A stretch of DNA of 64,000 nucleotides from contig QCFC01000004.1 of NCBI GenBank assembly GCA_003278465.1, positions 1-64,000 on the forward strand, in the 5' to 3' direction. This document shows positions 3,869 to 52,874 of the stretch, in pieces. The first letter of the stretch is position 1. Every line of letters begins with the position of its first letter. Made by a program: the position numbers and the translations under genes. The DNA is from Prochlorococcus sp. AG-363-B04. GTDB lineage: Bacteria; Cyanobacteriota; Cyanobacteriia; PCC-6307; Cyanobiaceae. The notes below the pieces were generated by a model, which was not told where the DNA came from, did no database searches, and saw only the letters and a program-made list of their open reading frames with translations.

Positions 3869-4039
3869 CTATTTCTTCTCCAGTTCCTCTTGGTAGTAGG
3901 CCTTCAGCTTTTTGATGTGATCAGAGCTAAGGCAACTAATTCTTGAAGTGGCCGGTATTTCTAGAAGCGTACAAACAGCAAGCAAGTCATCAGTAACAAC
4001 TTTGAGCTGCTCTGCAATTTCTAAAACTCTGATCGTCAT
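3869..4039 (-). CDS. Stand-alone IF-2 N-terminal-like domain protein
   Basis: About 56 residues from the internal Met (MTIRVLEIAEQLKVV), preferred over the track start five codons upstream. The sequence follows the IF2_N pattern: (V)R-V-EIAEQLKV-TDDLLAVC-LL-IPA-S--S-LSSDHIKKLKAY. That small helical domain is normally repeated at the N-terminus of translation initiation factor IF-2. Here it is the entire protein, followed only by a charged tail (QEELEKK). It might bind RNA or ribosomes, but that is inference. It converges with the amber-interrupted frame on the other strand. Confidence 0.65.
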   Translation of the reverse strand: MTIRVLEIAEQLKVVTDDLLAVCTLLEIPATSRISCLSSDHIKKLKAYYQEELEKK

Positions 4040-4110
4040 GCCTTTTGTGTACATCCCTGAAAGACGTATCCTCCAAAGCCTTCTGCTGCAAGAGTTTAAA
4101 ATGTCAATTT

Positions 4111-4156
4111 AGCGTGCTCGCAAAGCACCCGCGCTACCAAACTGCGCCAAGCTCCG
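4111..4156 (-). pseudogene. 5' half of a tRNA-Pro-like gene (truncated)
   Basis: The minus strand reads CGGAGCT-TG followed by a D-arm (GCGCAGTTTGGTAGCGC) and an anticodon arm (GGTGC-TTTGCGA-GCAC). This is the layout of a bacterial tRNA-Pro 5' half. The anticodon triplet reads TGC where tRNA-Pro would have TGG. After the anticodon stem the tRNA sequence stops: no variable loop, T-arm or 3' acceptor strand follows. Partial tRNAs mark integration sites of islands in Prochlorococcus, so this is probably an island scar. The track ORF 4109-4324 runs through it and is spurious. Confidence 0.6.
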
Positions 4157-5049
4157 TGCCTTTTTAATTGTAGTTAGTGGCTTACTTGTAGGCCAGAAGA
4201 GTGATACAGCAGTACTTCTCTTTCTTGTAAAGGACATTTTAAGCCTCATAAAAATCAACTTCATAGAACTCAAAAGCAGACTTTCATCAATTTCTCGCGT
4301 CTTGACATGACAAAATCTTGCCAATTTTCATACATTCGTTGAAGCCTTCGATTTCACTAGCTCAAGAATGATGAATCTTGGGTAAAGGGCTTTAGAGCAG
4401 CTCTGCTTAATTCAACTGCAAAAGGTTGGCAAGTAAGAGAGCACAGAGGGAAGGCATATCTATAGCTTGAATACATCATTAGGTGCATTAAAGGAATTTG
4501 ATCTGATCTGAATTAATAGACTTTGACTGCATAAGCAATATATTTGGCAATATTTTTACGATTGTCATAAATAAGTTTTGGTTCAATTAAGTTCCGAAAT
4601 TCTGCTGAAATTTCAAGCTTTTCATTGACTAGGAGGTGGGCTTTTGTATAATCGTATGAATATTCCTCAAATATTTCAATATTATTTGATATTTGGAGCT
4701 GATGGTAATGTTTGGTTCTTTTTGAGGCAAAAAACTTGATTAAGTTGATTGAATAATGAGTTTTTCAATCCAATTTATTTTTGCACAGTTATGTATAATC
4801 TAGTATTTTTTTTCTAACATATTTCTTGTTAGTCTAGTCATTACTACAAATCAAAATTTTTTTCACCGATACTCTAGGAGCATAGTGGCAGTCATAGGTT
4901 TAACTCTTGTTCAGGGTGAGCTTCCAATGCACTGCAGGGCAGTCAGTAGCAGGCATCCATATAGGAAGTAACTGATGAGGTTCCGATTTTTCAACACGCA
5001 ATAGTTTCTTGTTCAATGTTAATCGATTCAACTATCAGAGCCAACCTAG
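4157..5049. other. Intergenic stretch with one start-less frame
   Basis: No intact gene. The only protein-like content is the start-less minus-strand frame at 4513-4764. The rest is AT-rich with no convincing frame, hairpin or promoter that I can see. Confidence 0.5.
4513..4764 (-). pseudogene. Start-less open frame, gene relic
   Basis: 84 codons are open on the minus strand between a TGA and a TAA, with no ATG, GTG or TTG. The translation is strongly protein-like (NNIEIFEEYSYDYTKAHLL, EKLEISAEFRNLIEPKLIYD). This looks like the C-terminal piece of a lost gene. The family is not recognised. Confidence 0.35.
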
Positions 5050-7400: not shown

Positions 7401-9170
7401 TTATTGCAGGCTGACTGCCTTCCCTTCTCTACGTGGGTCCGCAGCACCATGCCAGCTTCCATCCTCCCAGAGAAGGACAGCTAATCCACTGCTAAATGAA
7501 CTGTATTTAATTTTGTGGCCGAGGAGTTTTAGGCCTTTGAGGATGTTGCCATTGGAATTTTGCCAGTAACCCTTATTTTCTATATAGGTGTGGGTTGGTC
7601 CTACTGCCAGATGTTTTTGGCTTACTACTTCTTTTGGTGAAAGTTTTAGGTCTATGATTCCGATTAATGAGTTGGTAATGTAATGAGGGATAAGCCACCC
7701 ACCTGGTGATCCAACTGCTAAAACTGGCTTGCTATCTCGAAATGCTATTACAGGTGACATCGAACTCATAGGACGTTTATTTGGACCAATTCGATTAGCT
7801 ATCGGTTTTCCTGATACCTCAGATAAAAATGAGAAATCAGTAAGTTGATTATTTAAGACCATTCCCCCAGATATATTCCTACTGCCAAAGACAGTTTCAA
7901 CTGATCCTGTATAACTAGCGATGTTGCCTTCTAAATCAACTACTACCAGGTGAGTTGTTCCTTCCTCTGTTGTTTTTGGTTGACTAGCGAAATCCAATAA
8001 ATCGCTACCTTTTGGTTTACCAGGCTCAGGATTAATAGTTGTATTGGTGGTTTTGATTTCGTTTGCTCTTTCTTTTATATAAATGTCTTCTAATAATCCT
8101 TTTAGAGGAACTGGCCAGTCAATCGGGTCTCCTATCCAATGAGAACGATCTGCATCTGCAAACCTTAGGGATTCAGCTAGAAGATGCCAATGGCCTATCG
8201 TTTTTTGTGACCAGGTGTCCTTTGAGAGAAGCTCATAGGTCCCAAGAGCCTGTAATACGGCAACGCCTCCCCCACTTGGAGGCGGAAACGAACATATGCG
8301 CCAGTATCTATATTTCCGACAAAGTGGTATACGTTTCTGGATTCGATAATTTGCCATATCCTGAAGAGTGATTGTTTGAACAGGTTCGTTCCTGTTCTGA
8401 CGCAGTTGTAGATCCTCTATAAGTTGATTGGCTACTTCACCTCGGTAAAATTCATTTCTACCTCCCTTTGCAATACGTGTTAATGTTGACGCTAATTCCT
8501 GATTGCGAAATGGCTTATTTTGTGATGGGAGAGAATTATTTTGGAGATAAATTGATTTAAACTTTTGACTATGATTAACCCCAATTGTTTTTGCTAAAGA
8601 TATGGATTTGATAAAGCGGGTACTGGGTATGAAGCCCTCTTTAGCAAGTTGGATTCCTCTTTCAAAATTAGTCTCCCAGGGTAAACGTCCAAATTCTTGG
8701 TGTCCTTCCCAAAGTAAAGCAGTTGTACCTGGAACTCCTATTGAAGATATACTTTTAGTCGCTTCTAGCCAAGAAACTTTTTTTCCATCTGTTGTTAACC
8801 ACATATTTTCATCAACTTGAGCTGAGGCGGTCTCTCTTCCATCTAAAGCGTGTAACGATTTTGTTGTTTGGTTCCAGTACAACAGGAACGCTCCACCTCC
8901 TAAACCTGAACTTTGTGGTTCGACAACTGTTAGTACTGTCTGTGCAGCAATAACGGCATCCATTGCTGTGCCACCTTCTTCTATCGCTTTAATAGCAGCA
9001 TTACTTGCTAATGGATTAGCAGTCACCACGACGGCCCGCCCGGCAGCAGTAGAGACTTTGTTCTGTGTTATGTCAATACTTTCTGGTGCATTTTTGTTGA
9101 CCTGAGCTAATAGAGGAAGAGGCAGTATTGAAAGTAAAACAAGTAATTTTAATGGCTTATGTTTTTTCAA
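7401..9170 (-). CDS. ggt: Gamma-glutamyltranspeptidase
   Basis: 589 residues, the usual length for periplasmic GGT. A signal peptide (LKLLVLLSILPLPLLAQ) begins the protein. The large subunit carries GGTAMDAVIAAQ and SSGLGGGAFLLYW, typical of the Ntn-hydrolase fold. The autocatalytic cleavage site and nucleophile is the first Thr of GTTHLVVVD (about T405), which starts the small subunit; RPMSSMSP and VGSPGG follow as in the family. GGT cleaves the gamma-glutamyl bond of glutathione and related peptides and may recover amino-acid nitrogen. The gene is monocistronic with a long non-coding region upstream. Confidence 0.95.
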   Translation of the reverse strand: MKKHKPLKLLVLLSILPLPLLAQVNKNAPESIDITQNKVSTAAGRAVVVTANPLASNAAIKAIEEGGTAMDAVIAAQTVLTVVEPQSSGLGGGAFLLYWNQTTKSLHALDGRETASAQVDENMWLTTDGKKVSWLEATKSISSIGVPGTTALLWEGHQEFGRLPWETNFERGIQLAKEGFIPSTRFIKSISLAKTIGVNHSQKFKSIYLQNNSLPSQNKPFRNQELASTLTRIAKGGRNEFYRGEVANQLIEDLQLRQNRNEPVQTITLQDMANYRIQKRIPLCRKYRYWRICSFPPPSGGGVAVLQALGTYELLSKDTWSQKTIGHWHLLAESLRFADADRSHWIGDPIDWPVPLKGLLEDIYIKERANEIKTTNTTINPEPGKPKGSDLLDFASQPKTTEEGTTHLVVVDLEGNIASYTGSVETVFGSRNISGGMVLNNQLTDFSFLSEVSGKPIANRIGPNKRPMSSMSPVIAFRDSKPVLAVGSPGGWLIPHYITNSLIGIIDLKLSPKEVVSQKHLAVGPTHTYIENKGYWQNSNGNILKGLKLLGHKIKYSSFSSGLAVLLWEDGSWHGAADPRREGKAVSLQ

Positions 9171-52574: not shown

Positions 52575-52874
52575 TTAACTATCTTTTTTCTTTTTTGATT
52601 CGGCATCACTTTTTGCTTTGGCAGCAGCCTCAGCAGCTTTTCTAGCCTTTTCTTCTGCTGCTGCCTTTGCTGCTGCTGCAGCTTTAGCCTCAGCAGCAGC
52701 TTTAGCCTCAGCAGCAGCTTGAGCTGCCTTTGCTCTGGCTTCAGCTTCTGCCTGAGCAGCTAATTGGGCTTCATATCCCTTAGCTGTAACACTGTCAAAG
52801 GCTTTGAATACCCCTATGACAATTGGCACATGGATCAAAGCGCCTGCCACAACAGTGAAATCGCTGTAAGCCAT
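52575..52874 (-). CDS. Ala/Lys/Glu-rich coiled protein with N-terminal membrane segment
   Basis: 99 residues. An N-terminal hydrophobic segment (FTVVAGALIHVPIVIGVF) is followed by about 70 residues of low-complexity A/K/E repeats (AAEAKAAAEAKAAAAAKAAA). The repetitive part is predicted to form a long single helix. The DNA shows matching imperfect repeats of GCAGC-type codons. Role unknown; a periplasmic or thylakoid-lumen spacer is only a guess. Confidence 0.65.
   Translation of the reverse strand: MAYSDFTVVAGALIHVPIVIGVFKAFDSVTAKGYEAQLAAQAEAEARAKAAQAAAEAKAAAEAKAAAAAKAAAEEKARKAAEAAAKAKSDAESKKKKDS

Follow-up and report, generated by a model that had tools for sequence, protein, structure and literature searches.

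The partial tRNA-Pro gene and its flanks

The window analysed here is a 64,000-nucleotide stretch of DNA from Prochlorococcus sp. AG-363-B04 (C4:1-64000, where C4 is a contig of the genome). The genome is a 1.5-Mb draft of 41 contigs and is 78% complete. Close to its left end, the window contains a partial tRNA-Pro gene with the following neighbours, listed in the reading direction of the partial gene:

4358-4465, plus strand: N-terminal remnant of a tyrosine recombinase (integrase) gene, from DNA alignment and 78% identity to residues 3-38 of the integrase of genome G035 (E = 2.3e-12)
4157-4340, minus strand: putative decayed P-arm region, an upstream flank shared with the intact tRNA-Pro genes of contig C5 of the same genome, G035 and G021, from alignments
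4114-4156, minus strand: orphan 5' half of tRNA-Pro(TGG), nucleotides 1-43, from alignment to C5:85775-85848; other genomes break alike
4054-4113, minus strand: putative P' arm, the left end of an inserted element, which immediately follows the junction and aligns with the same junction in G019
4043-4053, minus strand: lone remaining arm-type repeat TGTACACAAAA at offset 59, from a motif scan
3869-4054, minus strand: small IF2_N-like open reading frame of 61 amino acids with a likely ATG start at 4039 (Pfam IF2_N, E = 0.002, below the cut-off)

The minus strand from position 4156 (tRNA nucleotide 1) to 4114 (nucleotide 43) reads CGGAGCTTGGCGCAGTTTGGTAGCGCGGGTGCTTTGCGAGCAC, and 40 of these 43 positions are identical to nucleotides 1-43 of C5:85775-85848, which is the only intact tRNA-Pro(TGG) gene of the genome. 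Two of the three differences are in the acceptor strand, and the third, G36 to C, changes the anticodon from TGG to TGC. Beyond GAGCAC the sequences diverge, the window continuing with GCTAAATTGAC and the intact gene with TAGGTCGCAGG, and the match to the tRNA ends at the 3' strand of the anticodon stem. The first-pass annotation of the window, which had described a 5' half of tRNA-Pro at 4111-4156 that stops at the anticodon stem and has a TGC anticodon, was therefore correct, to within 3 bp in its coordinates. The alignment to the tRNA-Pro genes of the same genome that it had proposed gave a strong match to the TGG gene (E = 9e-19, 92% identity over 62 bp for the orphan region), whereas just 19 bp of the other proline tRNA gene (CGG) can be aligned. 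ARAGORN and Rfam searches of the window (E up to 10) called no tRNA at this place, as expected for half a tRNA gene.

The same annotation would have given up its reading if the similarity had been due to chance or if the 46 bp were part of a conserved protein gene. An E-value of 9e-19 speaks against the former, and the open reading frame 4109-4324, which overlaps the orphan half, has no Pfam match. Lytic Synechococcus phages S-RIM8 have a tRNA-Pro that is 91% identical over 46 bp to the half present in the viral attP described below, which might point to a copy of a phage-borne tRNA gene. The match of the orphan half includes the genome's own tRNA-Pro and its chromosomal flank, and we consider it extremely improbable that the half resembles a tRNA by chance, belongs to a protein gene or was copied from a phage. 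That the half is functional, for example as a small RNA under selection, is hardly more credible: parts of its D-arm and anticodon arm are still intact, but it has three changes in 43 nucleotides, including the anticodon and two in the acceptor strand, whereas distant relatives have intact tRNA genes with an identical sequence over most of its length, and Rfam gave no family. The view of the first-pass annotation that the TGC anticodon reflects lost selection fits the orphan half of G019, which has the same junction and still reads TGG. Because G019 retains the G, later decay is the simplest reading of the anticodon change.

Homology to the intact C5 locus is not confined to the tRNA but includes a further 185 bp or so of upstream flank, ending near position 4340. 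The same flank in G035 separates the intact tRNA-Pro from a divergently oriented gene for a tyrosine recombinase of 428 residues. The window retains approximately the first 38 codons of such an integrase on the outer side of the orphan half; the start codon is lost, and two TAG stops interrupt the frame. The arm repeat TGTACGCAAAA is decayed in the window (4157-4340). On the other side, TGTACACAAAA is present at the offset expected from other orphan halves, which have a pair of repeats there; the second copy of the window is decayed. The IF2_N-like frame is the first gene after the junction. It is also found after the junction of G026 and, in a shortened copy, in G019. At other loci (L081-L091), it directly follows integrase genes with overlapping stop and start codons, as read by eye, which suggests that it encodes a helper of the integrase, possibly an excision factor.

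Two other observations concern the window itself. The region around 140-230 on the minus strand resembles, by eye, a remnant of a PstS-like phosphate-binding protein when compared with pstS of G019 in L072. An Rfam match to isrG at 52598-52735 scores far below the gathering score, is rich in GCTGCTGC and is probably low-complexity coding sequence.

Recurrence of the break in Cyanobiaceae

A 5' half of tRNA-Pro without a subsequent 3' half was found in 11 of 300 Cyanobiaceae genomes, including that of the window, at one place in each, and the reversed control pattern was found in none of the 300. Two further orphan cases, in G019 and G026, escape the pattern. G019 has the same junction and the same following sequence as the window, and the junction of G026 is related. 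In the 11 genomes, the halves break after GGGAGCA or a few bases later, and in all orphans the break follows the anticodon stem. Downstream of the break, several unrelated groups of sequences can be distinguished.

G112 is a single-contig genome, and both ends of an island can be seen in it. The two ends, an orphan half at 134,415 and an intact tRNA-Pro at position 177,689, share one strand and are approximately 43 kb apart; an integrase gene just upstream of the intact tRNA points away from it. The island flanks were joined by a script and searched within the genus of G112. The left flank runs into an intact tRNA-Pro in G314 (81% identity over 525 bp), which represents an empty left site; the right flank had no match in G314. 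Smaller pairs of orphan and intact genes on one contig are present in G298, G304 and G322. A scan of 20 proteins of the G112 island identified an integrase, an AAA protein, transposase-like and endonuclease-like proteins, a trypsin-like peptidase and a DUF932 protein. The island was also considered as a prophage, and this was not supported, as no structural genes were among these proteins.

Integrases beside tRNA-Pro occur in G035, G019, G112 and 18 loci of named genomes, and the window has the remnant only. The 18 loci were found among 80 integrase loci of the named genomes, and in each of them an intact tRNA-Pro is divergent from the integrase start. Among the other loci, L287 has a tRNA-Pro in the other orientation, and L284 and L286 have a tRNA-Val(TAC). 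A related integrase in G065 (L131, C1) is divergent from tRNA-Ala(GGC). Insertion on the 5' side of tRNA-Pro thus appears to be a recurrent route of island formation in Prochlorococcus and its relatives. As a separate case, L102 contains two tRNA-Pro(TGG) genes, both complete and equally oriented, at a distance of 1.1 kb (G116:C17:6734-6777, 7852-7894), unlike the half-gene duplications.

Repeats in the arms

The arms of an attP hold short repeated sequences to which tyrosine integrases bind. All 13 tested spacers between integrase genes and tRNA-Pro contain a pair of 9-mers with an 11-bp period. In ten of the 12 orphan junctions, such a pair, with a period of 10-11 bp, lies 55-59 nucleotides beyond the half; the two that do not score are those of G023 and the window. 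The repeats were first noticed by eye, and the shuffles of the pair test are therefore not blind. An earlier comparison of the arms by shared words was weak for some pairs, that of the window included, and the pair test at fixed offset is more telling. The repeat motif varies between families and is common to the two sides: it is TGTACRCAAAA in G035, G019 and G026, TGAGAGCTG in G112, and AGCGACAAA in G304 and G322. Degenerate tRNA-Pro-like stretches (TAGCGCGGGTGC...) were also seen shortly after the P' arm repeats in L159 (G200) and L156 (G322).

An ordinary segmental duplication of the tRNA-Pro region, with an accidental break at the anticodon, could account for a copied stretch that includes the upstream flank and not the tRNA half alone. 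However, that flank is the integrase side of the element, and independent orphans end within a few bases of one another, are followed by unrelated DNA and have paired repeats at a fixed offset. Duplication is accordingly a very improbable origin of the fragment.

Viral contigs with tRNA-Pro halves

Three contigs of IMG/VR contain the 5' half of tRNA-Pro, in two of them within an intact tRNA. In L206 (also L288), the half is an orphan located between an integrase gene and a gene for a phage sigma factor, in the neighbourhood of Erf, HNH and minor-tail genes. The integrase is 45% identical to that of G035 and had no match in cultured phages, among 50,697 phage records. When the viral contigs were searched with the G035 integrase, no relative was returned; they were found by the DNA pattern of the tRNA half.

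Five relatives of L288 were found, which makes a set of six contigs (L288-L293). L288 and L289 contain a 5' half with pairs of the GCGGCCTAR type on both sides, and L290-L293 a 3' half with pairs of TGTATCCTAG or TGTAATCTAG on both sides. Their integrases are 81% identical within the first group, 89-95% within the second and 64-70% between the groups, and all six have the same integrase position, core orientation and arm layout. A core between two arms with repeated sites, as required of an attP, is thus present, and L288 and L289 provide a free attP of the predicted form. The letters common to the cores of all six sites are GCTTTGGGAGC and include the anticodon loop. Therefore, strand exchange most likely occurs in the loop. 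The changed anticodon base of the window (G36C) falls inside this common core. L288-L293 are candidate temperate cyanophages of marine picocyanobacteria.

Proposed mechanism of insertion

Based on the orphan junctions, the integrase loci and the viral attP, a mechanism can be proposed. The fragment in the window is very probably the displaced 5' half of the host tRNA-Pro(TGG) gene and the core of attL, the distal boundary of a tyrosine-recombinase element that inserted on the 5' side of the gene. Such an element would have an attP composed of an integrase gene pointing outwards, the P arm, a tRNA 5' half with the anticodon core, and the P' arm leading to the IF2_N-like gene. Strand exchange in the anticodon loop would join the 5' half of the element to the 3' half of the host gene, and tRNA-Pro would thus be rebuilt on the proximal side. 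The original 5' half of the host gene would remain distally, attached to the P' arm, and decay there (TGG to TGC). The order of the viral attP, the junctions of orphan halves with P' arms and those of P arms with intact tRNA genes are the products expected if such an attP entered tRNA-Pro. Since the host half would be displaced by an element that carries its own 5' half at the anticodon, the break would mark the site of strand exchange. The reaction itself and the exact position of the exchange are what we infer from these sequences.

The first-pass annotation had called the fragment a probable integration scar, and the same break in ten other genomes of the 300 and in G019 and G026, together with the integrases, attP and arms, bears this out. 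Its idea that a recombination split the tRNA at the anticodon is right as to the place; however, the gene was probably not simply broken, its half having been displaced by that of the element. If so, the 43-bp scar is a mapped attachment site for which core, arms, integrase and orientation are predicted.

Both arms and both neighbours, the integrase start and the IF2_N-like frame, flank the half in the window, as in the viral attP. The sequence P arm, 5' half and P' arm may therefore be a junction between two tandem elements or an attP retained through homologous recombination. Either would belong to the same site-specific system, and only the history would differ. However, the P' side is well preserved, in contrast to the heavily decayed P arm and integrase, so that two events of different age fit better than a retained attP, and a separate P arm accompanies the intact tRNA-Pro on C5. 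We regard a tandem junction or a retained attP as possible but distinctly less probable than the displacement of the host half. For the displaced host half, the decayed P arm on its 5' side and the dead integrase start indicate that the site probably already held an older element of this family, so that two such elements would have entered in succession.

The newer element would extend from 4113 to the left end of C4 and continue, beyond an assembly gap, inwards from the right end of C5 as far as the intact tRNA-Pro, at least 7.6 kb in all. We infer that a single element has its ends in these two places, on C4 to the left of 4113 and on C5 upstream of the intact tRNA; this join is based solely on the matching arm types (TGTACRCAAAA at both ends) and the orientation of the contigs. 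The phosphate-transport genes gave no chromosomal anchor, the pstA homologue of the genome being on C11. No integrase is left on the P side in C5. An open reading frame at C5:87511-87930 (L068:17512-17931), 1.7 kb upstream of the intact tRNA-Pro, is weakly similar to VapE-like DNA helicases and is perhaps a remnant of an element's replication gene.

3' halves and apparent use of both sides of the gene

The same genome contains a 3' half of tRNA-Pro at C5:61693-61713, 24 kb from the intact gene and on its 3' side. Upstream of this half, the arm has a pair of GGGGTAGCTG, the arm beside the intact gene a pair of GCCAACAAAT, and the repeats are also unlike those of the window. This 3' half therefore came from another element. 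The first-pass annotation had suggested a search for the matching 3' half elsewhere, for example near a tyrosine recombinase. A 3' half does exist, but it is not the partner of the fragment, and no lost partner is needed because the 3' half of the host gene is expected to have been incorporated into the intact tRNA-Pro on C5.

G035 has three 3' halves downstream of its intact gene, at C10:22617, 26808 and 31383 (L168:4617, 8808, 13383). By eye, the arm repeats of each match the previous end, which corresponds to a tandem array of the classical 3' type. Several 3' halves per genome, all beginning on the 5' side of the anticodon stem, were also noted in the genus of G112 (e.g. G284, G374 and G366).

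Because the related viral integrases (64-70% identical) differ in the half that they carry, elements appear to dock on either side of the gene. On balance, we slightly favour the view that one group of integrases, found in picocyanobacterial phages and islands, uses the anticodon loop of tRNA-Pro as its recombination site, with attP sites that contain either half, so that a working host tRNA-Pro could be assembled from two elements. If this is true, the scar in the window is one product of the group, and the phages would be temperate and belong to marine picocyanobacteria. Related integrases with opposite halves of the same tRNA were not described in the open-licence literature covered by a limited search, which is weak evidence of novelty.

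Comparison with known systems

Among the 3919 islands of Islander, 3760 have 3' fragments and 159 have 5' fragments, and 2083 are anticodon-centred (Hudson, Lau and Williams, PMC4383910). By these counts, the scar belongs to a known minority class, that of islands with 5' fragments, as the first-pass annotation had implied when it called 3' ends the usual type (159 of 3919; PMC4383910). The 5'-fragment islands of Islander have an intact tDNA, a fragment on the same strand upstream of it, the integrase inside and a crossover at the anticodon (PMC4383910). Correspondingly, the fragment of the window includes the 5' end of the tDNA and stops inside it (nucleotides 1-43, then divergence), all orphan halves break at the anticodon stem, and the six viral cores share GCTTTGGGAGC. 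A distance of 2-200 kb and the same orientation on one replicon, as in the Islander definition, are seen in G112 (43 kb) and G322 (4.9 kb). Unlike in Islander, the fragment and the intact gene of the window's genome are on different contigs, C4 and C5, and the integrase beside the half is dead.

Tycheposons share the hosts and are described as inserting at tRNA genes with a tyrosine recombinase (PMC10872708, PMC11389934, PMC10187409); a tyrosine recombinase is located at the tRNA gene in relatives of the window, which itself keeps a remnant of it. By these descriptions, the remnant on C5 with similarity to DNA helicases is a further resemblance. Other integrases in islands of Prochlorococcus and Synechococcus are located upstream of tRNA-Phe or tRNA-Cys and thus resemble the present ones in their position on the upstream side of a tRNA. 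However, the tRNAs differ, and half genes or arms are undescribed in the parts of that account considered here (PMC10187409), which calls these integrases distinct from those of tycheposons.

The T7-like cyanophages P-SSP7 and S-TIP37 are similar in that they have an integrase and an attP with a partial copy of a host tRNA gene, tRNA-Leu (PMC8776855). The phages described here differ from them in the tRNA, in their Erf, HNH and minor-tail genes, and in the integrase without a match in the phage records. Intact prophages have been sought in vain in isolates of marine picocyanobacteria (PMC8776855). tRNA-Pro provides a concrete candidate attB for uncultivated cyanophages that look temperate.
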